Source of the DNA: Brachycybe producta
Taxonomy: Eukaryota; Arthropoda; Diplopoda; Playtdesmida; Andrognathidae
Direction: 5' to 3'
Length of the DNA: 64,000 bases
Assembly (NCBI GenBank): GCA_036925085.1
Contig: JAUPFP010000021.1
Coordinates: forward strand, 1,452,027 to 1,516,026
In this document: piece after piece, positions 762 to 62,164 of the stretch
Numbering within the stretch: the stretch's first letter is position 1
Layout: every line of letters starts with the position of its first letter
The notes under the pieces: model-generated
The model's database searches: none
Told to the model about the DNA's origin: nothing
What the model saw: the letters and a program-made list of their open reading frames with translations, nothing else
Position numbers and translations under genes: made by a program

Positions 762-8183
<7,422 letters not shown>

Positions 8184-12554: not shown

Positions 12555-15500
12555 ATGGCGGCCACGTTTCGTGGTGTGTCTGTTTTCGCGTTCGAAGACA
12601 CCGGCGAAACAACGAAACGTTTTGTTTTTCCGGTCACGATAAAAATAGAAGAAACGCCGCATGGATTCACCATTCAATTCTTCCAAGGTTCGTAGCCTCC
12701 TCCTGTCTATTTCACTCATTTAACGCTTTTCTTTTCATTTAGATTGAAACACATTTTGAAGCTCATCCATTGTGTTGTTGTGTCATTTCGTCTCTGCTTT
12801 TGTTTTCTTATAAAATAATATTTCTCCATTACATTTATATAGAATATTATTTGAATTCTGTTATTTATTAAGCGTGTGTTTATGAATATCTTTGTTTTCA
12901 CTATGTTTTTATTTTAGGGCTGAGGTTGGTGGGGGTCGGAGGAGGAGGCTTTTCTTTGGAGGGGGGCCTCCTCCTCCTCCTTTGTCTTATCGCCGCCGCT
13001 TTTGTCCCGCCTTTTAGGTTTAGGGGGTGGTGGGAGATAGACAGGGGCGTAAGGGGTGGTGGTGTTATTACGAGAGGGAGTTCCCTTTCTTATATTCCCC
13101 TAAACAAAAAAAAACCCTTCAGAAAAAAAAGGCCCAATTTCAAGAAGGGAAGCCTTAAAACTTAGCACTTGAACTTTCAACTCTCTGAGAAAGGCGTTAT
13201 TTTCTATGTTAAAACTCAATGTTAATTTTTTAAAAACCTTTCGAATAGTTGATTAATCCTATTTTTCAGAGAGAAAAAAAAATCTTAAGTGTTTTAGAAA
13301 CTAGAATGGTAATATAATTACTTGAGGGTTAGTCTTCATGTTTTGATGTGTCTGTCTTTCAAATTAAACTTTTTATTGACAAAAAATTTAAAAAAACTGT
13401 CGTCTGCTTAATAAAGTTAGAACATTTTGAAAACTTGCATAAAAACAGCTTGTTTTGAAAGAATAATCAAACATGAAAATATCTCTTAAGTGATTGATTT
13501 GCAATTCTAGTTTCTAAAACACATTTAAGGTTCTCTCTTTATTTTGCATCTGAAAGACAGAAGAATCAAGAGTTTGAGACATTTTAAAGCCACCTCAAGG
13601 TGATTGTAAAACAAAATTATGAAAAAGAATTAGAAACTAGAAAAGATCTGAATCACATTCTAGTTTTTAACACACTTTCTAGTTTGTTTGTTTTTAAATT
13701 TTTCTAATGAAAGACAGAATTGAATCATGAGTTCGAATATCAGCTGTTCATAAACCATAATAAGCAGCGAGTTCAAGGACGTTTATGTTGTGTCATGTTT
13801 TAAGCCTAGCTTTGTTTTAAGAAACGATTAATTATTATTTAAATAATAACGACAAGTGACTCATAAAAAAACGACTCAAATTTAAGAATGAAACTTCCCA
13901 CTTGACCCCTCTTTAGGTTCAAACATGAAAAATACTCAAGTTTTATTGAGTCTTGAAAAGGAAGGAGGAGGAGGAGGAGGAGGGGACGGTTTTCTATGTT
14001 GAAACCCCTTCTCGGAGGCTTCAAGTTTTTCTTTCTTGAATTTGGACCTCTTGTTTCTTACAAAACTTAATTAGAGAAGAGGAAGCTTTTTTTAATATTA
14101 TTATAATTGTATTTCTGAAAAGGGGAGGAGCTAGTAATGATTAAGCCACGCCCCTTTTATTGCTCAGCCATAAATCGTGACGTCATAATTGTTTTCTATT
14201 TGCTAATTTACGTTTAATTAACTCTTCAATTGTTTATATTTTCCCGTTTGATATAATGATGAGGTTGACGATGATGGTGATAACTAACAATGAAAAAAAT
14301 GTCACGAGAACGATTTTACGACCAAAAAAAACAACAACAGGACAAAAGAGAAGCACGTGCTTCCTTTCGTAGCTAGCGCCCGGTGACCACGCGTGCGCGC
14401 GACGTGTGACGTCACAGCTAGTTGTAATAAAAAAAGATAACAATTAAACAGCCGGGTTATTCAGCCTTCATTTCAGAAGGGAAGAAATTGAAATTGTTTT
14501 AGAAACTAGAACGGTAACTGATGCATTTAATGATTGAATATGATGTTTGAATATCTTTTAAAATAAACTTTTTCGTCAGATTAAAGTTGGATCATTTTGA
14601 AACTGACATAAAAAGTTTATTTTGAAAAATGATCTTAAGTGATTGAAATATCATTCTAGTTTTTAAAACACTTTCTAGTTTCGTCTAAATTTGCACCTGA
14701 AAGACAGAAGAAAAAGGCGCCATTTGCAATTTTAAAACCAGTTTATTATAATTTATTATTAATATAAATATTTGTTGTTTTGACAGATGATAACCTAAAC
14801 AGTGCGTTGATGTCCGAAGTGTTGGTCACTCAAGTGGAAGTGGCTCGAACGGGACGAAGAGCATGTACACTAGCCAGTGGTCAAGAGTCTCTGATTCTTC
14901 AGTTCGCCTCTGTTCACGGTTCGAAAACAAAGAGTCATTTAGATAGAGTGAGAGATACTGAGAGAAAGATATTAACCGAGAGAGATTCAGAGAGAGAGTT
15001 GGGAGCTTAACTTAGTGACTAGAAAACCCAGTGAGTGTGTATTCTCTTTTTAACTTAGATTTCCAGACGTTCCACCAGGTGGTGAAACGGATCCAGTCGA
15101 GCGGCGAATCTTCTGCTTTCGTTCAGAGGACTGACGAATCGTCGGCCATGCAGTACTTCCAGTTTTACGGCTACCTTTCGCAGCAACAGAACATGATGCA
15201 GGACTACATTCGTACTTCGACGTATCAGAGAGCGATCTTAGCGAATGTCGCCGATTTTAAGGACAAAATCGTTCTGGATGTCGGAGCCGGATCTGGAATC
15301 CTCTCTTTCTTTGCCATTCAGGCCGGAGCCAGGAAGGTTTATGCCGTCGAAGCGAGCAGCATGGCGCAACATGCAGAGGTCAACTTACTTTCAAATGAAT
15401 CTATTAAATTCGTTTTAAACATCACTTCGAAAATATTCTCGTTTGTCGGATCATGAAAATACGCGGGGAAAACCCGGAAAATAGCTTTGAATTAGCCTGA

Positions 15501-18500
15501 AAAAGCATAGAAACGCCACTCAGAAAAACATTGTAAACATTCTGACGTTGGCTTCCGCACTTTTTCACAAGTTTGAACTTGTTTTACGGTGTTTATTGTG
15601 GAAGTCCACCTGTTCTTTTTTTCTTTCCCAAACGATTAAGTTTGATTGTTACGACTTACATCTTCTTATAGGCCCTTGTCTATCACAACAAATGCAGCGG
15701 TAAAATAGTTGTGATTCCTGGAAAGATAGAAGAGATCGATCTTCCCGAACAAGTGGACGTCATCATTTCGGAACCGATGGGTTACATGTTATTCAACGAA
15801 CGGATGTTAGAAACTTACCTCCACGCTAAGAAGTGGCTTATACCGAACGGTATTCTTTGATCTAGGCTTTTTTTAGTTTTTTTCAGATTGACTTTTATTT
15901 TATTTCTCTCGTGGTTTTTTTTTTTTTTCAGGCAAGATGTTTCCTACGCGAGGAGATCTTCATATCGTTCCGTTTACGGACGACACCCTTTACATGGAGC
16001 AATTCTCGAAGGCCAACTTTTGGTTCGGTTTTAGATTTTGAAACGTTGGTGTTTACGTAAAATATCGTTTCGCTTTCTTTTAAGGTATCAGCAGTCTTTC
16101 CACGGCGTCGACTTGTCCAGTTTGAGGCAGGCTGCGATGAAGGAGTATTTCAGGCAGCCTGTCGTGGTTAGTTGTTTTTGTTTTTCTTAAGATTCGAAAA
16201 TAAGTTTCACGACTCACTTTAGCTGTTGAACTGGTGTTGTTCGGATCTCGAAACTACTGAGCACTAAAAAAAATTCCTGAATTGCCCTAAAAATCTGCAG
16301 AATTCTGCATTTTTTTGCTAAAAAATTGTAGAAATCTACTGAAGTTTCATGAATGGTATTAAAAATCGGTGGGACTTTCTTGATAATTTGCAGATGTCTC
16401 CTAAATTTCTGCAAAACTGTGGTGAAATTCTGCAGAATTGTGCATATTGTAACAGAATTCTGATGAATTTCACCAAAAAATATAAATATATAATTTAGAG
16501 AATTCTGGAAAAAATCGTAACAAAAATAATAAATTAGTAATAATTAAGTTTTCCGTTTGTTTAAACTATTGAATTTTGTGATCTTAGGACACTTTTGATA
16601 TCCGTATCTGTATGGCAAAGTCACAGAGGCACATTGTCGATTTCCTGGAAGCGGCCGAATCCGATTTGCACAGGATAGAAGTGCCGCTCGAATTCCATTT
16701 GCTGTCTTCGGGAACAGTTCACGGCCTTGCCTTCTGGTTCGACGTCGCATTCGTCGGCTCAATGTCAGTAAAAGACGAGTCATGAGCATTCGTAAATTCC
16801 TTTTTATTTTTTTTTTTTACGAACTTTCTTTTATTTTTACGTAGTCAAACTATTTGGTTATCGACGGCTCCGACGGAGCCTTTGACTCATTGGTACCAAG
16901 TTCGTTGTCTCCTTGAAACTCCGATTTTTGTAAAACAAGGACAGGTTCTAACCGGAACCCTCGTTCTAAATGCCAATAAACGGTTAGAAGTTATCGGAGA
17001 GAGAAAGAGACGAGAAATGTTTTATTTACCCGTTTCTTGTTTCGCCTCTTTTAGACAAAGTTACGACGTCGATATCGAACTTTGCGTCGAGGGAACCGGA
17101 ACGAAATCTTCGAATACATTAGACCTTAAGAATCCGTACTTCCGTTACACCGGACAGGCTCCTCCTCCACCGCCGGGACATAATGGAACTTCGCCGTCGG
17201 AGGCTTATTGGAGCCAATTAGATGCCCAGGTGGCACGACAAGGTGTGGACCTCGCTCTCGACCATCTCACCACTTCCGATCTGGCCGATTGCACGCTCAA
17301 AGTGAGTGTAATTTATAAGAACGATCGTTTTGACTCTTTGCTTTTTGTTTCTCTTTCCCTTTTCCGTCCTTCCTTCGTTTCCCCGTCCTTTTTTTTTTAC
17401 TTCTTCGCATTAACGAAAGCCGTGAATGGTATCGTCTTGAACGGCTTGGACGATCTAGCGATTCAACAACAGCAGCAGGGAAGTTATTCTGCTGGGCTTT
17501 CGTATCCCGGTGTTGTAACCACATCCTCCTCGTCTAACGATAACATCGGTCAACAGAGGGCGGCTCAGGCGAGGATTTCGGCCAGCATGGCGGCCACCTC
17601 GATCGGAGGTGGTGTCTCGCCTTCTCTTTTTACTCAGGTGCTGCTTTTCTACGGAGGTTAACGTGGAACAAATAGGTTTTTTGATTAGTGTAAATTTCAA
17701 ATGGTGCTCCTAGATCGCGTTTTATGGCCACGTTCATAGAGATATATAATAAAATATCATTTCAAGGAGCGAATCTACTGGAAAAAAACAAGTAGAGAGC
17801 TTCTTATAAGCATTTTTAAGCGAAATTCAAACTTGTTTCCGATAATAGACGAATAAATTAATCGATTGGTTCACCTTTTTTTAGTGATGATTGGTTTGAA
17901 AATAATCGTTTTGCGAATGTTTTAAAATGCCGAATTTCGTTTACGCTTGTTATTGACGTTTTAAAACTCATAAAACGATTATTTTGAAAGAGGCCGACGT
18001 TAAGCGGTCCACCTGGTTAATTTATTCATCTAGTTTTAAAACACTTTGTATTTAGTTTAAAAGATGTTTTTTTTTAAGAAGCTCCGTACTTGTTTTTCTC
18101 ATGATTCACTTCTTGAAATGTTGTTTTTCCTGTGGTCACGTGTTGGCACGTATTGATGTTAATGCCGCTCTAGGAGTACGATTTATAACTTAAAAACCTC
18201 CAGTCCAACCTTAAATGAAAGAAAATGTTTTTTGTTTGGTTTTGTTGTTTGTCGAGAAGTTAAATTCCTTTCGGGGTGTTTTTTTTTTCGTGCGGATTTA
18301 CTATCAAAAGTTTTTTTTTTTTTTTTTACTGATCCGAATTTATCGGGTTTTTCTTTCTTTTCTCTTTTGTAATTAGCAACAGGCGATTGTAATGGGTAAC
18401 ACGTCGCATTATCCTGTCAGCAATAACTTTATGATTGGTGATTACGTCACTCCTGGCAATATCATAATGCCGACGCAAGGATTACAGTCTCAGTTCCGCC

Positions 18501-21345: not shown

Positions 21346-24300
21346 TCACAATAATTTAAGAGCAAAATTGATGTCATCTGTGCTAACGTTGAGTCGAATT
21401 CTTTGGTTCAGATCGTTCCCTGTCTTTTCCAATAGCAAGAGCCTGCAGCTACTTAGACGAGAACAGACGGACGAAGCCTGAGATACGTTCAGAGTTTCGA
21501 CACCTAATAAAAAAGGGACGATTCGTAACACAAAATACAATTTCGTTCAGTTATAATTAAACAACGATTCACAAACCTTGTATTCTACATAAATCCAAGT
21601 GTTGTTTGTAGATTTTAACAAATGGTGCTTCTTCGAGGCCGACTCTTTGAAATTCGGCTACAACAGCCTGAAGGAAAACCTGTTCCTGAACACTGGCATG
21701 TCTTAAAAAATACAGTATTGTTTCGGTAAAACTGAAAGGAAATGAAGGACGTTTTGAAATATACTTGATGGCTTCTATTTTGGGAGAAGAGAACATTTCC
21801 TGAATGGCACAATCAACTTCACCCATTCCAACAAGAACTCCTTGTCGTTTCCTTGGGCTCGTTGTCGCTTGCGAGTCCACGTTCAGTTCGGTGGCACGTC
21901 GGCAAATATCTAAAGCACGACGAGCATCTCCGGACATTGCAGCCACCTTCGAAACAGAGATGTTAGGAAAAGGGTCAAAGTATGGATTCTACATGTAGTA
22001 TTGAACTGCGAACCTTTCTAGCAACTAGCTGTAAAGCATCGTGGTCGAAAACGGCGAAATTACTGAGTCTTGATTCGAGGATTTCCTGAAGTTGCTTGTA
22101 AGAATACGGATGGAAAGTTAATCTTGTCAATCCCTGAAAGTTTTCAAAGAAAAACCATGAAGGTGGTTTCAAACTGTTTGTAAAACAATCTTAAACGAAT
22201 TCGACCAATTGCTGTTCGGATAAATCACTTGCCATTCTACTTGAAACGCGGTTCATCATTATCCGTTCTGGAAGATCCATCGTATTTGCAATGGCCAGAA
22301 TGACGAGACGAGAATGCGGACGTCCGGGCCAATCGAATAAACTATACATAACATCCTGACGTCGAGTCCACAATAGATCCAACTACAGAAAAACGCGAAC
22401 AAAAAATATCGTAACGAACCGAAGAAACCACGAAAATCGCGAATACGACGACGACTCACTTCGTCGACGAGAAGTACAACGGTTTCTCGTCTGGGACCGA
22501 CTTTTCCGAACTTCTCGTTTAAGAGTTGAACCGCGTGTGCCGCAGTCACCTTCTGACCCGTAAGTTGCTTTACGAAAGAAAATAGAACGTTCGTAAAAAT
22601 GGTTTCGATCGTTTCACAAAGTGTTTTTCGTATGTTACTTTGTAGATTTCGACGTATGACTGACGAGGATCCGTCAGTTTCATTCCGTTGATGTCGAGGA
22701 ACATAAACGATGGAATTTCTCCGTCTTCGAACGATTGTTTGAGAGAACGAATAACCTCGAAGACAGTCGCCGTTTTACCAGTTCCCGGAACTCCAGATAT
22801 ATACATACAACTAAATAAGTAGAGAGAAAGGTGTCTTAGCAACGATCGAACGTAAAGAGATTAGAAAAAAAAATGGGATTGTGGGTGTGGTGATTCCACC
22901 GATTACCCTCCGGTTCCATCAATGATTTTCCCCTCGACGAAAGAGTGGATCTGCGCGAATTCTTTGACACGACACGGAAGAGTATCAGGGACTACAGAGA
23001 CGTGAAGACGAGCGCGAACTTCTTCGAGAACGTTGTTGGAAGTGGAGTTAGGTGACGAACGAGAATGGTTACGAATCGGGATTCGAGCGATAGGAGCTTT
23101 GTTTCTCGTTATCTAATTAGAAAAATGTAATCAGCGCCGCGTTTATATCTGCTTTAGTCTCAATGCACAATGGGATTTCGGGGCCCCTGGGGACGTTGGG
23201 GGACCCTTAAAAATTGGGACCGCTAGGTGAGAAGCCCTAAATGATTTAACTTCCAGTGTAAGAAAGGCTTAAAATGTCGAAACCTCAAATGGCATACTTT
23301 AGATTTTTTGGACTTGATAGATCCTCGACTCGTTGTTGAAGATCGGTTTCGCGTTTGACGTTTCGATTTCGTCTCCGGCACACCGTCGTCGTCACTGAAA
23401 TCGGCAACGAATACTTCGGAATCTTCAGAGTCGTCACTGAAATCGAAAAAGTGACGACGAAGAGCTCGATTTGCAGTTTCAGAAGAGCAAAATGAAGAGA
23501 AACTTGAAAATGTTTTATAAACTAGAAAGGTAGTTCAATCACTTAAAAGAGGGTATTTTTTCAGGTTTGATATATCTTTCAAAATAAACTTGTCTTCTGC
23601 ACAAACTGACATAAAAAGCTTATTTTAAAAGATTCAAATTTCTCTTCATTTTGCTCTTCTGAAATGTTAAAAGTAAAATAATGAAAATAACTGGTCTCAG
23701 AAGATGGAGTACCATTCACTAAAAGATTCATCGAAATCATGGTCGTCGTTTCCACTGCTACAGCTGCCGTAACTCAGAATTTCCGTTCTGAAAGTGACCT
23801 TCCGTCCAGATCGTGTTTGTACGAGGCGCATTTTCTTCTTGTGTTCTCTTCCGTTTTCTTCTTCTTCTTCGTCATTCTGAAACACTTTCTTCTTGGCGGA
23901 TCCAACTTTACGTTGTGGTCTTCCATTCGCGACCACGATTTTCTCTTCCTTCCTACTTTTCGTCACCTTTGGTGACCTCTGATATGTTTCGTTAACGACT
24001 GTTATCGATTTCGCAGGTGAATCTAATAAGCGACGTCGAACCGTAGAAGTCACGGAACCAACCACGGACGATGACGATTTCGTACGAATCTGTGATCTGT
24101 TCGGAGAGTAGAAACTCTTAAACGGACTCGCCGGAGATTCTATCGCTTTATTCCCATTTGAAGCCGAACGGACTCCATTCTCCTTCTTGCTTTCGACGAT
24201 CGGACTTTTCTTCGTTGGCGTTTTCAGTTGCGTTAGACTCGAAACCGATCGGACCGATGGACGTCCACGTTTTCGTTGTATCGGCGAGCCACCGATCAAC

Positions 24301-25314
24301 TTTAACGTTTTTCCATTGTATTCAAATCTCACTATAAAACACGGCAATTCATTCGCGATCTTCGATGAATCGAAGTTCGTCATCAATGGATCTGTCTCGA
24401 ATATCTTTAAACGACAAAAATTGGTATTGAGGTTGTAGTTTTTAAGTGTAAACGGCGACTCTCGTACTCTTATTCAGACTTTCTGGGGAGAGACGCTTGA
24501 AAGTGTTTTAGAAACTAGAAGGGTAGCCGAATCACTTAAAAGTACTTTCATGTTTGATATTTTTTTCAAAATAAACTTTTTATGTCAATTTGAAAAATGA
24601 CCCAAGCAGTCGATATGAAAGATTATCAAACATGAAAATACCCTCTTTAAGTAATTGAGCTACCTTTCTAGTTTCTAAAACACTTTTCAAGTTTCTCTAT
24701 ATTTTGCTTTGCTGAAAGACAGAATAATTACGAGTTCGCCCAAGAAAATAGAGAAGACTGTGTGCCCATAAAGACCTTGCATTTTGCAAAAATGGTCTCC
24801 GCATCTAAATCGTTGTCATATTCTCTCTTCTCCAAAAAAAGTTCTGTGATTTCGGGTTTTGGAAATTGCATGATGTTGGCCAACACTGGCGGACGACATT
24901 CTTCGTGTGGCCGACTGTACCACTGTACAACGGCCCTGTTACGGTCCTCTTCCGAGCTCGAGCCTCTTCTATCGTCATCGTCGTTCCCTCCTCCTCCTCC
25001 TCCTCTTCTATAGAGAACTTCAACACGACCAATGAAACACGTCTCGATGTCATCGGAATTGACGTTATCGCTACGAATGAGGACGTGATCGCCGACTGTC
25101 ACTTTCAGATCACCGTGCTCGAACGCCCTACAAAATTGAAAGCGGACCGATAATGGACACGGACCTAAAAATGTGAAGCAACCATTTCGAAAGAGGACAA
25201 TTAAACTCACTTGAAGTTCTCTTCGACGGTAAATCCTCTTTTACGTTTCACTTTTTCGAATTTTCCTTCTCCGATCCAACGGAATTCCTTTTTATCATAA
25301 TATGGAAAATGCAT
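21346..25314 (-). CDS. ORC1: ORC1, origin recognition complex subunit 1
   Basis: Twelve exons in transcription order join in phase: 25314-25211, 25127-24776, 24404-23713, 23436-23298, 23112-22907, 22810-22639, 22567-22460, 22382-22233, 22133-22014, 21946-21765, 21701-21577, 21503-21346 (stop TGA), 835 residues. ORC1 is the AAA+ ATPase of the origin recognition complex, which licenses replication origins with CDC6 and loads MCM2-7. The start ATG at 25314 gives MHFPYYDKK, matching the short N-terminus of the family before the BAH domain (about residues 35-150, binds H4K20me2 in vertebrates). Residues 150-430 are a basic, Ser-rich disordered linker. Walker A is GVPGTGKT (about 504-511), Walker B VVLLVDEL (about 585-592), followed by [17 protein letters not shown] and the winged-helix tail. 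Intron 8 is GC-AG. Introns 2 and 3 are largely family A MITE. The gene is convergent with CARM1. Confidence 0.95.
22134..22232 (-). other. GC-AG intron in ORC1
   Basis: On the minus strand the donor reads ATG/GCAAGT and the acceptor CTTTCAG. The join gives VSSRM-GLTRLTF, as in the orthologue. GCAAGT is the standard form of the minor GC-AG class. No GT donor gives this join. Confidence 0.85.
23475..23690. mobile_element. Family A MITE filling ORC1 intron 3
   Basis: AGAGAAACTTGAAAATGTTT, AACTAGAAAGGTAGTTCAAT, mirrored TTATTTTAAAAGATTCAAAT. The host intron is only 276 nt (23437-23712), so the element makes up most of it. Confidence 0.8.
24480..24740. mobile_element. Family A MITE in ORC1 intron 2
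   Basis: TTTTAGAAACTAGAAGGGTA on the left and TTTCTAGTTTCTAAAACACT on the right. It occupies about two thirds of the 371-nt intron and ends within about 40 nt of the donor. Confidence 0.85.
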
Positions 25315-38707: not shown

Positions 38708-38913
38708 ACAGGCAATTAGAAATCGGGACAAACAGAAGTTGGCTCCGCCCTTTTTATGACGAACGACAACTTCTAATTGGTTTTATATGTAGTCTGACGT
38801 CAGATGCTCCGCCCTTTTCAACGTCGAACCACACAACAAACCAATTAGAAGTTGCCGGTCGTCATAAAAAGGGCAGAGCCAACTTCTGTTTGTCCCGATT
38901 TCTAACTGCCTGT
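38708..38913. mobile_element. Family B MITE, copy 1
   Basis: Ends ACAGGCAATTAGAAATCGGG and CCCGATTTCTAACTGCCTGT, nested inverted blocks TTGGCTCCGCCCTTTTTATG and CTTCTAATTGG. Flanks GTGTCTCAG and GTGGCGAAG agree at 6 of 9 bases. Non-coding. Confidence 0.88.
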
Positions 38914-53242: not shown

Positions 53243-54226
53243 CTAACTCAAATACTGCGAGGGTGTCATAATTTGACATCCACTATTTACATGGTCCATC
53301 AGCTGCTGTTTTAAGTGACAAATATGGTCCTTGAGCTTTGTCACAACCGTTCCCAATTCCGTATTCTCATCTTTGAGCAACTTCACCTTGTCCTCTAAAC
53401 GCGCTATTCTTTCCAACTTCCGTTTCCGACATTTACTTGCAGCAACACGATTCCTTTGCCTTTTTCGTTCCAATTTGATCCTTTCTTGTGCCATCATATC
53501 AATGGGCGAAAGGGGTGGAGAAGAACATCCACTGGGAACGGTTTGAGGTTCTTCTTTGATGTTAACGACACCGTTTCCAACGGCGGCGCCTGTCACGAAT
53601 TGTGACGCGGCACCGGTAACGACACCAACGGTGGTAGTGGTGGTGGCGGATGAATATGGATGAGCTATGTGATGAGGAACACCTCCAGTTGATTGCGCAG
53701 CCGCAATGGCAGCCGATAACGAATACGACGACGTGGATGAATTTGTAGCCGAATTTGTCTCACCGTTACCACCGCCGCTATTACTACTGCCGTTACTCGT
53801 AGTTGTCGTTACCGAATCCATAGATGAAGTACCGTGATGTAATTCGGCAAGAGCATCAACGAAACCTCGAGCATACATTTCTTGTTCTTCGGTAACATTT
53901 TTGGTAAAAAGAAACTGACTCGGTGTTGGAGTCGTCGTCACTTGTCCGTTATTCTGTTCGATGATAAGATTTTCTAAATCGGGTGAAGCCAATTTTAATA
54001 AGTTAAGATCAGGAGACGAAAGAAGCGAGTTGAACTTTTGTCGTTTAGCCGCAGTTGGACCATTAACGATACCGACAATTCCTCCTCCTCCTCCTCCCGG
54101 ACCGTTGTTTCCTCCACCTAAATCCAAAGTCATGGATTTTTTTAAATTTCTAATATTTTCTTTCGCCATAAAAGCGTCGTCAGCGTAAAATGACGTTTCC
54201 ATTGTCCTACTCGACACGTGAATCAT
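53243..54226 (-). CDS. JUN: JUN, AP-1 bZIP transcription factor, single exon
   Basis: This is an intronless reading frame of 327 residues with stop TAG, intronless as in other animal jun genes. The start is either 54226 (MIHVSSRT) or 54202 ([11 protein letters not shown], which aligns with the vertebrate METTFY). Regions in order: the N-terminal delta/JNK docking region with KSMTLDL, the Ser-Pro JNK target region [19 protein letters not shown] (about 67-85), TTTPTPSQF with the paired threonines, [21 protein letters not shown], a Ser/Thr/Ala-rich linker, the IKEEPQTVP motif, the basic region (about 248-272, [20 protein letters not shown]) and a leucine zipper to about 311, ending HVNSGCQIM. 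The protein forms AP-1 homodimers or heterodimers with Fos/ATF and binds TGAGTCA sites in the nucleus. The upstream region carries AP-1, MEF2 and CCAAT sites, so autoregulation and immediate-early control are likely. Confidence 0.97.
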
Positions 54227-54329
54227 TTGATTTTTATACGATTTTTCTTACTTTATATTTAAAAGTCTTTTTACTTTCTTCTTCTTCCGTCAAGAGAGAC
54301 CGTAATACCAGAACCGTACCCGATAATGA

Positions 54330-54336
54330 TGAGTCA
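54330..54336. promoter_or_regulatory. AP-1 site TGAGTCA in the JUN 5' UTR
   Basis: Exact AP-1 consensus about 104 bp upstream of the JUN start codon, inside the predicted 5' UTR. It is a second candidate autoregulatory site. Confidence 0.5.
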
Positions 54337-54632
54337 TCAAATGGGGACCACAAACAAAAAAAACACACCAAACACCAACTTTTTTATCACATTACACTTT
54401 TTTTTTTTAAATATAAGTAAACGTAAAACTTTCACTAATATTATTCCAATAATAAGAAGTAGTGTTGTTATACGCCATTACAAAAATACACACAAATCCT
54501 GGTTCTGTTAATAATAATTCAGGAGAACGTTTTACTTTTTTCAACCCCTTTTGAGTAGTTTCAGTTACTTATTGTTATTTGTCTCAGTAGTCAGTTTGTT
54601 CTTTTCAATGTGAGATGAGTGGCTGATGGCTG

Positions 54633-54640
54633 TTCTTATA
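54633..54640 (-). promoter_or_regulatory. TATA-like box of JUN
   Basis: TATAAGAA on the minus strand, just downstream of the AP-1/MEF2 cluster and about 400 bp from the start codon. It predicts a transcript start near 54600-54610. Confidence 0.55.
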
Positions 54641-54644
54641 GCCG

Positions 54645-54651
54645 TGACTCA
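54645..54651 (-). promoter_or_regulatory. AP-1 site (TGAGTCA) in the JUN promoter
   Basis: Exact TRE consensus; the plus strand reads TGACTCA. It lies 4 nt upstream of the TATA-like box. Confidence 0.7.
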
Positions 54652-54657
54652 CTTCAG

Positions 54658-54667
54658 CTAAAAATAG
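54658..54667 (-). promoter_or_regulatory. MEF2/RSRF site (CTATTTTTAG) in the JUN promoter
   Basis: Exact MEF2 consensus, 2 nt from the TGACATCA element. Vertebrate c-jun has the same MEF2 sequence next to its jun1 site. Confidence 0.75.
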
Positions 54668-54669
54668 AA

Positions 54670-54677
54670 TGATGTCA
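54670..54677 (-). promoter_or_regulatory. jun1-like element TGACATCA in the JUN promoter
   Basis: This eight-base element is identical to the proximal jun1/ATF-Jun site of vertebrate c-jun, and on the gene strand it has the same orientation. Confidence 0.78.
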
Positions 54678-54692
54678 TCGGCGACTTCTCTC

Positions 54693-54697
54693 ATTGG
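54693..54697 (-). promoter_or_regulatory. CCAAT box in the JUN promoter
   Basis: CCAAT on the minus strand, 15 nt upstream of TGACATCA. A CCAAT box holds the same relative place in vertebrate c-jun. Confidence 0.65.
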
Positions 54698-54704
54698 TTA
54701 GTGA

Positions 54705-54710
54705 TGACGT
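54705..54710 (-). promoter_or_regulatory. CRE-like half site (ACGTCA) in the JUN promoter
   Basis: The plus strand reads TGACGT. It is upstream of the CCAAT box and could bind CREB/ATF. Confidence 0.45.
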
Positions 54711-54849
54711 ATGCCTTACAAGTACCGTTTATACGTCACTTTCTCAGAACTCCGCTTTTCTCCCGCTCTTTCTATCTTTACTAGCTCCTATTTGACTACG
54801 TTTGAAAACGGCGATATTCAAATTCAAAGGAGACGATATAAAAAAAAAA

Positions 54850-55215
54850 TCATGTACGAGATTCACTAAGATTCAAAAAGATTCACTCAGATTCACAGTG
54901 TATCATAAGCTTGGCATAGGCTTAGCAGTGTTTTTTATTTATAGTATTAATAGAATTAAATTCTGAAAATCCAGTAAAACACGAATATAGAAAGTGAAAC
55001 ATCCTCCTACCGAGAGGAACGGCATAAGGGTTGAATCTCGTACAGTATGGAAAGCAGTTTTTACTTTTCATCTGTACCGTTTTACTACATTTTCAAAAGT
55101 TAAATCTAGTCTGTATGTTCTGTAAAACGCGGATAAAAAGTAAAACGGCTTGCCATACTATTGTGAACCTCGGCGAATCTTTGTGAATCTTAGTGAATCT
55201 CGTGCATGATTTTCT
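54850..55215. mobile_element. Family E palindromic elements upstream of JUN
   Basis: TACGAGATTCACTAAGATTC at the left, TTAGTGAATCTCGTGCATGA at the right, internal TGTAAAACGCGGATAAAAAG. At least two copies are merged. Confidence 0.7.
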
Positions 55216-55348
55216 TCTATGGCGTATCCCTTGCTTGCTATACTTTCTATACAGTATATTTCTATACAGTTCTATATAGTAGTTTCTATACTTTACTGTA
55301 CGAGATTCACCTCCTGTGTCGTCCTCCTTGACGATAATAGTACAACAT

Positions 55349-56589: not shown

Positions 56590-56965
56590 GCTTTTTCTGT
56601 TCAAAAATTATGACATTTTCAAACTGAAATAAAAAGCTTATTTTGAAAGATAACAAACATGAAAAAAATACTCTGATACTGTGATTAAACCAAGGGAGCC
56701 AACATTAAAGAAAATCATATACGAGATTCACTAAGATTCACAGCAGAACGTATGTATGGAAAGCCATTTTACTCTTTTTTTTCCGCGTTTCACTGGATTC
56801 CCAAAATAGAATTAAAATCAGAAAATTCAGTAAAACGCGGATAAAAACTCAAAGTGGTTTTCCATACCGTACGAGATTCACCCCCCCCCCCCCCCCCCCC
56901 CCAATGTCCACCGGGCCCTTGGATTTAACTACCCTTCTAGTTTCTAAAACACTTTTAAGCTACGC
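56590..56965. mobile_element. Family A MITE interrupted by a family E copy
   Basis: AAAAAGCTTATTTTGAAAGA at about 56630 and CCCTTCTAGTTTCTAAAACA at about 56930 are separated by the family E palindrome at 56716-56882. Confidence 0.72.
56716..56882. mobile_element. Family E palindromic element
   Basis: TACGAGATTCACTAAGATTC on the left, CATACCGTACGAGATTCACC on the right, arms around TCCGCGTTTCACTGGATT and AGTAAAACGCGGATAAAA. Inserted in a family A copy. Confidence 0.75.
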
Positions 56966-57821
56966 TGTAAAATTAACCAAGTTTAAATTGCGTAGGCGGC
57001 GATTTTTTTTTTGGACTTGTTTTCAAATTACAACAATTGGCTACCGTACTTTTTATTGCTCGCAGTGAGGCGTGCCTCCTGGGCCCATCCTTTCTCTCTT
57101 TTAACTTAAACGATGACGTCATAATCATATTGTTATCACTGTGCTAATCAACATACTAATTGTTTTGTCAAAGTGTATTTATTTGCCCCAATTTTTTTTA
57201 TTTCACGAGCAAAAAAAAAACAATAAGTTTGAATTTATGGGTAAATTATCAGTAAAAGAAAAAACTGAATTACCGATAAAAATAACAAAAAAAAGGGGGG
57301 GGGGGAAAGAGTGTTTTCTTTTTCCAAGAATCGAATTCGATTGAATCGATTTCACGTCACAAAATCAGAAAACAAAAGTAACTTTGAATAATAGGGGTGG
57401 GGGGGGGGGGCCGAGAGAGTAATAAATGGAACTTACCTTTTTCCGAAGAAATTAGTTTTATTTTTTTATGAACGTCACTTTTGTTATCTACAAAAAACAA
57501 AAGAAAAAGCGGAATTTAAATGTCAATATTTGTTATCTTTTTATTGAAATTGTTTGAAAAAAAAAAGTTTGATAACAGGTAACAAAATTAGAGTAATCCC
57601 CCCCCCCTTTAGGTCGGGGGTTGGGAGGTTGTCTCTAATTACGTCAATATAAAAGCTCCCATATCTAGTTTAGAATCAAGGAACGTTATGTCAATCCATT
57701 GCGTAATTAATACATTGAAACGCAATGCAATCGTCTGTTCTCATTAGCGCCATAGTTACTTAATACTTCTATTGGCGAATCAAGGAATAATTGAAGTTTT
57801 GGTAAGGGGGGACATTGGGGG

Positions 57822-58008
57822 GGGTGAATCTCGTACGGTATGGCAAGCCATTTGAGTTTTTATCCGCGTTTTACTGGATTTTCATATTTTAATGCTTTTC
57901 TGAGAATCCAGTAAAACGCGGATAAAAAATTAAAATGGCTTTCCATACATACGATGAATCTGGGTGAATCTTTGTAAATCGTAGTGAATCTCGTACATGA
58001 TTTTTTTC
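57822..58008. mobile_element. Family E palindromic element
   Basis: GTGAATCTCGTACGGTATGG on the left; ATCCGCGTTTTACTGGATTT and its complement in the centre; GTAGTGAATCTCGTACATGA on the right. Confidence 0.78.
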
Positions 58009-58179
58009 ACCGTCGGGCCCCCCTTGAGTTTTGGCGTTGATGTCGATTCTGACGAATTTAATCAATTTCGCGACATCAGCGCCAAAACTTCGATTGTTCA
58101 CCACCGGGCAACAAAAAAAAAAGGGTCCGACAGTTACCAAAAACTGTCAAAAGGTGGCGATACTGTGTGTGTATCTAGC

Positions 58180-58385
58180 ACAGGCAATTAGAAATTGGGA
58201 CATACAGAAGTTGGCTCCGCCCTTTTTATGACGACCAGCAACTTCTAATTGGCTTGTTATGTAGTCTGACGCCACATGCTCCTCCCTTTTCAACGTGGAA
58301 CCACACAAAAAACCAATTAGAAGTTGCCGGTCGTCATAAAAAGGGCGGAGCTAACTACTGTATGTCCCGATTTCTAATTGCGTGT
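58180..58385. mobile_element. Family B MITE, copy 3
   Basis: Ends ACAGGCAATTAGAAATTGGG and CCCGATTTCTAATTGCGTGT. Flanks GTATCTAGC and GTGTCTGGC agree at 7 of 9 bases. Confidence 0.9.
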
Positions 58386-58539
58386 GTGTCTGGCTAGCTA
58401 AGTTCTCTATATATTAAACATACACTGCAAGATACAAAGGTAAATCAACTAAGAGCTTTTCTTATGGAGCATTTGGTGCCAAAACTGAGTGTTGCCAACA
58501 GATGGCGCAAACTGTACTTCAGTTACTATACGATTACAG

Positions 58540-58608
58540 AGCGTACGAGATTTATCAATAATATCGTCCCCTTTGAAAATAGCTCGTCATACTGTACGAG
58601 ATTCACCC
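58540..58608. repeat. Family E fragment
   Basis: CGTACGAGATTTATCAATAA and TACTGTACGAGATTCACCCC without the central palindrome. Confidence 0.55.
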
Positions 58609-58794
58609 CCTATATTGTCCCCTTTGGCAAGATGGCTTCCTTCTAGCTTCAAAAAGCAGACGATTTTTCACTCATTTTTTGGCTGATTTTTCTAAAACTT
58701 AACATTTTCTAAGATAAAGAGACTGAGAACCAAATGAAATTAATTAAAAATTATAGTGATTTACCTTAATTTACAATTAATTTATTATTCTGCA

Positions 58795-60334: not shown

Positions 60335-60739
60335 TAGATGTTCATTATAGACATTTTGATTTTAAAAGTTTTGAAGAGAAAAAAATAAAACGGAAATTTT
60401 GACACATAGTTTAGAAAAGAAAGGGGGCCATTACGGTCCGTCCTTAATAAGAGTCAAATTACTAACAAAAACAAGAAGAAGAACTAAAAAGTTGTTTAGA
60501 GAAACAACCATTAAAATTAATGTAACGTGAAAGTCGGAACCGAATTCAAAAGAACTTAATATGGAATTAATGTTCCTGTGGAACAAGCGATCCATTTAAC
60601 AGTAACAGACACCCCCTCCCCCCGGTTACTACTCCAACAATCATATTCTAAGGTTAGATACATACGAACAATTCTGGCTTCTTAATCCGGAATTGTCTCT
60701 CAAAAAACCATTTCTGGCTTATTTTTCTATTGGGATTTA

Positions 60740-60947
60740 ACAGGCATTTAGAAATCGGGACGAACACAAGTTGGCTCCGCCCTTGTTATGACGACCGGCA
60801 ACTTCTAATTGGCTGGTTATGTAGTCTGACGTTGAAAAGGGCGGAGCATGTGACGTCAGACTACAAAACCAGCCAATATTAGAAGTTACTGGTCGTCATA
60901 ACAAGGGCGGAGCCAACTGAAGTTTTCTCCTATTTCTAACTGCCTGT
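60740..60947. mobile_element. Family B MITE, copy 4, with exact 9-bp target duplication
   Basis: Ends ACAGGCATTTAGAAATCGGG and TATTTCTAACTGCCTGT. Flanks are identical, TGGGATTTA at 60731-60739 and 60948-60956. Nine-base duplications point to Mutator-like transposases. Confidence 0.93.
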
Positions 60948-61169
60948 TGGGATTTATGGTTTTCATCTAATTTCTCATTTTTCCATCATTGAAATTGAAA
61001 ACATTACGATTTGAACAAATACGGATTTTTTTTTCAAGCTAAAAAGGCTTGTCCACCCACAACACAAACGGTCCAGTCAGTTTAGGATAAAAAATGAAAG
61101 CAAATATCTGGTCGAGCAGCAGCAGCAGCAGTTCGTTTGAGTCCTGATGGAAGAGTAATTAAGACTGAA

Positions 61170-61505: not shown

Positions 61506-62164
61506 TTTTTTTTGCAACGCCTACCTATACACCGATTAATGTTGACATAGAAAACAAAAACAAGATGGACAAAACCAGAATTGATCGTGTGTACCCTGCC
61601 TACAGATGTACGTATTGATTTTGATAAAAAAAAGTTGAAAGTTCACTTTTGTTTATGTCAAGGGCAGTTTTGAAATTAGATCTCTTTTCTATTATTAAAA
61701 AAAAATACAAAACAGAAAATGCGTTATTTCTGAATTTGCAAAAATGGTATAATAGGCCTATGGATGGAGGAGGAAGTGGAGGAGTGTTCGATCTTTGAAC
61801 AAGAAGCTCCTGTAAGTGCCTCACTCACTTACTATATAATCAACAATGGGAGGGAGAGCTCCTTTGAAATGTGGTCCACTTATTGCGTCATTGTCGTCTT
61901 GAGTTGCATCACGAGACGGTTATTCTGTTTCGTTTCGGGTCAGGTCACAATTTAAGCGTTAATAACGACGATAAAACAAAAACAGACACAAAACAACCCC
62001 CCCCCCCCCCCAAAAAAAAAAAACGGTACACAAAACTGAAACAGACCTGATGGACTGAATGAAACCAAATGCCTGAAATTGAATGAGAAAGTCTATGAAT
62101 TGCAATTGGAGAAGAAGAAGAAGAAGATCAGTTTCTTATTAATTAGTAATTATTAGGACCTACC

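Follow-up and report, generated by a model that had tools for sequence, protein, structure and literature searches.

The intronless JUN gene of Brachycybe producta is preceded by a putative proximal promoter with the Jun/ATF and MEF2 site variants of mammalian c-jun

The stretch of DNA analysed here, called the window, is 64 kb long and spans positions 1452027-1516026 of contig C21 in the 295.3-Mb genome assembly of Brachycybe producta. Its minus strand carries an intronless JUN gene. Pfam recognises the open reading frame as Jun with 137 bits and as bZIP_1 with 62 bits, and the bZIP region can be aligned, with many substitutions, to PDB chains of JunD and c-Jun. The protein also retains a 15-residue stretch, seen in the translation, that we take to correspond to the region of c-Jun phosphorylated by JNK; in character it resembles arthropod Jun sequences. 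Vertebrates have three JUN genes. A search of the B. producta genome (442 contigs, 295.3 Mb), in which four candidates were scored, gave this locus as the sole JUN match. The absence of introns is found in other animals as well; a review describes c-jun, in vertebrates as in honey bees, as free of introns, and notes its very long 5' leader. Contamination by vertebrate DNA was considered and rejected, because the bZIP region departs from the mammalian chains at numerous positions and the flanking DNA consists of repeats of the window.

Directly upstream of the JUN frame lies a compact group of sites whose role in driving JUN is putative. In gene-strand order these are ACGTCA, CCAAT, 15 nt, TGACATCA, 2 nt, CTATTTTTAG, 6 nt, TGAGTCA, 4 nt and TATAAG. 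The preliminary description had given these sites, their order and the gaps of 15, 2, 6 and 4 nt, and direct reading of the window confirmed every base of them on the minus strand. The features of the locus are as follows.

54705..54710, minus strand: CRE-like ACGTCA (weak evidence; ACGTCA is over-represented across the whole window)
54693..54697, minus strand: CCAAT box, a putative NF-Y site (sequence; NF-YA exon in the genome)
54670..54677, minus strand: jun1 (Jun/ATF) site in the variant of mammalian JUN, TGACATCA (matches printed mammalian sequence)
54658..54667, minus strand: putative MEF2 site CTATTTTTAG (sequence; MEF2 exon in the genome)
54645..54651, minus strand: canonical AP-1 site TGAGTCA (sequence)
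54635..54640, with AA to 54633, minus strand: putative TATA box TATAAG(AA) (sequence)
54607..54613, minus strand: putative initiator TCACATT (consensus match only)
54203..54611, minus strand: predicted 5' untranslated region, counted from the putative start to the second JUN ATG
53246..54226, minus strand: intronless JUN coding region, 327 amino acids from the first ATG (54226; second ATG at 54202) (Pfam, PDB chains, genome search, translation)

The spacing of TATA box and initiator suggests that JUN transcription starts at about A 54611, 29 nt past the first T of TATAAG. Counted from this putative +1, the CCAAT box starts at -86, jun1 at -66 and the MEF2 site at -56. The corresponding positions in human JUN are about -91, -72 and -59. 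The leader predicted from this start is about 400 nt long and contains three upstream ATGs (54478, 54392 and 54337), each of which meets a stop. An additional AP-1 string occurs within it at 54330-54336 (TGAGTCA as read on the plus strand and TGACTCATCA as read on that of the gene), and might possibly be a second autoregulatory site.

The mammalian promoter with which this arrangement can be compared is available in printed pieces. The JUN-TSS primer used for ChIP, whose species is taken as human, reads gggtgacatcatgggctatt (PMC5706420), and a mouse Jun promoter string is printed as GGTGACATCATGGGCTAT (PMC5563843). Both give TGACATCA-TGGG-CTAT. A MEF2 probe, TCGACGGGCTATTTTTAGGGCC, which contains GGGCTATTTTTAGGG, is printed in PMC4339472 and PMC6470251; the latter paper names as its source the work of Shin et al. 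1999 on the c-jun promoter. When the relevant fragments of these sources (primer, mouse string and probe) are joined, the mammalian arrangement becomes TGACATCA-TGGG-CTATTTTTAG, with a gap of 4 nt.

It had been proposed that the invertebrate locus keeps the vertebrate promoter grammar. Measured against the printed pieces, this is borne out for the sites themselves: the jun1 8-mer TGACATCA is present, as in mammalian JUN, and the 10-mer CTATTTTTAG follows a few nucleotides downstream, in the same order and orientation and likewise upstream of an intronless JUN. The gap between them differs, being 2 nt (TT) here and 4 nt (TGGG) in mammals; a gap of 4 nt is not known to be a requirement. The CCAAT box stands exactly 15 nt upstream of jun1 in the B. 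producta window. A CCAAT box 15 nt upstream of jun1 is probably a feature of human and other vertebrate JUN genes too; no printed copy of this vertebrate spacing was found in the literature search. The TGAGTCA site and the TATA box fall outside the printed mammalian match, and we know of no counterpart in mammalian JUN of a consensus TGAGTCA and TATA box directly downstream. Their inclusion in a vertebrate grammar was rejected, since no support for it was found. In the accessible part of a study of the chicken JUN promoter, predicted WT1 and CEBPA sites are named, and neither a jun1 nor a MEF2 site is.

Genes for several of the candidate binding factors can be detected in the genome. There is a MEF2 exon with most of the MADS/MEF2 segment, and two exons of an SRF gene were found. 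A match to NF-YA reads through two stops, presumably an intron, and its 63-residue open piece carries YVNAKQY, which we take to be the NF-YA motif. ATF2 and FOS were not recognised by motif among eight bZIP loci of at least 13 matches. In mammals the Jun promoter is activated and autoregulated by JUN/ATF2, as a review states in the part available; other papers place a site for MEF2 binding upstream of the start of c-JUN and describe c-JUN induction as MEF2-dependent. From the sites we infer factor binding, start site and regulation, as well as the ancestry discussed below. NF-Y bound to CCAAT would keep the JUN promoter open. A bZIP dimer of the Jun/ATF type on TGACATCA would give JNK-responsive positive autoregulation, as would, additionally in this organism, an AP-1 dimer on TGAGTCA. 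MEF2 on CTATTTTTAG would contribute MAPK or calcium input. No more than about 100 bp would then separate any of these sites from a start near 54611 directed by the TATA box.

A promoter that functions in this way is explained by descent and by convergence alike. The reading we prefer, to which we assign a probability of roughly 0.58, is that the JUN proximal promoter works like that of mammalian c-jun and that its CCAAT/TGACATCA/CTATTTTTAG core was inherited from the bilaterian ancestor, not assembled twice. Conserved regulatory logic alone would not demand that asymmetric sites agree in their exact variants, orientation and order, as they do here, and this favours descent. Judged on sequence, common descent of the trio appears somewhat the better supported of the two explanations. 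That the trio is an orthologous cassette whose place relative to the JUN start has been fixed from the bilaterian ancestor onwards, with the actual DNA sites shared, is in our estimate an even bet. The wider statement made at the outset, that a promoter module is conserved across bilaterians, thus holds well as regards non-randomness; as regards homology it is a two-point comparison, of one invertebrate with printed mammalian fragments.

Shared regulatory sequence between protostomes and deuterostomes is very rare, and the enhancers of Clarke et al. 2012 are called by these authors the first such (PMC3410860). These Bicores, near Id and Znf503, are short blocks of binding sites beside the same gene in both groups; in Bicore1, site order, orientation and spacing are kept between protostomes and deuterostomes. 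The JUN promoter resembles them in that short sites next to the same gene agree in order and orientation across this distance. It differs in that the Bicores are enhancers backed by several species and by transgenic assays, whereas the present case is a proximal promoter in one invertebrate, known from its sequence. The word Jun is absent from the main text of the Bicore paper. Among the matches listed in the literature, seen in part, there was no comparison of vertebrate with invertebrate JUN promoters, which is weak evidence of absence, and the available portions of reviews on insect immediate-early genes and on shrimp contain no invertebrate JUN promoter sequence. If the trio is orthologous, a proximal promoter would be conserved at the level of individual sites across the protostome-deuterostome distance, and the Jun/ATF-MEF2 switch by which an immediate-early gene regulates itself would be dated to the bilaterian ancestor.

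The best surviving alternative, though we consider it less likely, is convergence or turnover under a conserved logic: JUN would be autoregulated by bZIP dimers and driven by MEF2 in many animals, and equivalent sites arose or were replaced independently near the start and came to the same variants by happenstance. Convergence is possible because an immediate-early promoter can be expected to hold sites of the AP-1 or CRE-like and MEF2 kinds; these would be useful both for Jun autoregulation and for control by MEF2. The 10-mer CTATTTTTAG is moreover a common MEF2 site. For example, the identical sequence is a Mef2 target in another arthropod promoter, that of Drosophila Actin57B, and is also bound by schistosome Mef2 (PMC3250504). 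Actin57B is unlike JUN in being a muscle gene, and no adjoining Jun/ATF site is described for it in the part of that paper available. The jun1-MEF2 spacer that differs in length from that of mammals, and the additional TGAGTCA of the B. producta promoter, are also in keeping with independent assembly. Such logic does not, however, require that two asymmetric sites share their orientation and order, that the 8-mer and the 10-mer be exact, or that CCAAT stand at the 15-nt gap probably shared with vertebrates.

The genome itself provides a comparison of what a looser arrangement contains. The pattern CCAAT-N10-20-TGACNTCA-N0-15-YTAWWWWTAR was found at 10 places and its reversed control at 3; like the other pattern counts from the genome search, these may be lower bounds. 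The JUN place alone has both exact site variants, and the other nine have different ones, which counts against happenstance. One of the nine shares the 15-nt CCAAT gap, but with different sites. Descent better accounts for the exact variants, the common strand, the order and, if the vertebrate figure is right, the CCAAT gap; convergence better accounts for the different spacer.

Inheritance of the core has also to be set against coincidence among short motifs noticed after the fact, which we regard as very improbable. Each site taken singly is unremarkable. In the window CTATTTTTAG occurs twice (0.55 expected; at least two in 10 of 100 shuffles), TGACATCA five times (2.1 expected; 7 of 100 shuffles) and TGAGTCA nine times (7.2 expected), and CCAAT has a density of about 0.9 per kb per strand. 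That each site recurs elsewhere in the window speaks for chance, and so does the search for striking coincidences across many windows. The upstream ACGTCA carries little weight, because it is enriched across the window (52 occurrences against 22.5 expected), and it was rejected as evidence for that reason.

The full CRE palindrome TGACGTCA is itself present 13 times in the window, e.g., at 14178, 26166, 26212, 52246 and 52284. Those at 38795 and 60851 sit in copies of one repeated stretch that contains GGGCGGAGC.

The combination of sites is another matter. The pair TGACATCA-N0-10-CTATTTTTAG is found once in the window and in none of 100 dinucleotide shuffles. With a gap of 0-8 nt, TGACATCA-N0-8-CTATTTTTAG was found once in 295.3 Mb on both strands, at the JUN promoter, where Markov models of the window predict 0.23-0.30 for the whole genome; the reversed control was found twice. 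This exact composite is expected about 2e-7 times per 500 nt, yet the single one found in the genome is at the one gene whose mammalian promoter has it. For the loose trio, the nine matches away from JUN give an expectation of 7.6e-6 per 500 nt of one strand, and 100 Mb simulated with an order-3 Markov model held one match to the loose pattern and six to a still looser one. Within the window each of these two patterns occurs only at JUN.

When the mammalian 27-mer assembled from the joined printed pieces is aligned locally with both strands of the 64 kb, the JUN promoter is the best-matching place, with a score of 28. The next place scores 22, and the highest of 30 simulated windows 25. A score of 28 was reached by 10 of 100,000 simulated 500-mers and by 1 of 20,000 shuffled queries, as well as by 6 of 2,450 500-mers from contigs that had been chosen for holding related patterns.

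Very large sequence collections show how often such composites arise without JUN. In IMG/VR the exact jun1-MEF2 pair with a gap of 0-6 nt is present in 19 contigs, one of which has a CCAAT within 40 nt upstream (1 nt from jun1), and the loose trio is present in 56; composites of this kind thus arise by chance when enough sequence is searched. These 75 contigs serve as background only. None of them encodes JUN (tblastn, E up to 1), and among the 76 loci tested the only match was the window's own. JUN relatives were found in neither IMG/VR nor GTDB genomes, and a prokaryotic genome collection of 257 Gb yielded no instance of the exact composite that includes CCAAT. Unlike the chance composites of large collections, the one at the JUN promoter is placed as predicted with respect to gene, strand and distance. 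A chance origin of the site arrangement is unlikely.

Least probable of all, and only marginally behind coincidence, is a reading in which the sites serve not JUN but a repeat or another transcription unit, upstream or antisense. In its favour, a dispersed inverted-repeat element lies just upstream at 54825-55233, and the Pfam scan, which covered three of the 29 open frames listed between 54.7 and 64 kb, leaves room for a divergent neighbour. Against it, the element ends about 115 bp short of ACGTCA, the interval 54150-54824 has no other match within the window at E 1e-3, the three scanned frames (56709-57068, 58398-58646 and 61734-61955) have no Pfam match, and the TATA and initiator-like strings are oriented towards JUN. 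A divergent neighbour gene upstream of JUN is not indicated by these three of 29 frames.

The inverted-repeat element carries 'tacgagattcactaagattca' near its ends, and diverged copies of it are found at 56688-56884 and 57821-58008. Two MITE-like hairpins, at 58179-58386 and 60739-60948, have arms of about 70-90 nt and are related to each other. No match at the gathering score of Rfam was found in the window, and no tRNA. Several other coding regions are present in the window. An open frame of 592 residues at 2875-4653 on the plus strand is rich in Ser and Gly and has no Pfam match. Exons of CARM1 occupy 15019-17661 on the plus strand and exons of ORC1 21569-25240 on the minus strand; a frame with a BAH domain at 24728-25240 probably belongs to ORC1.
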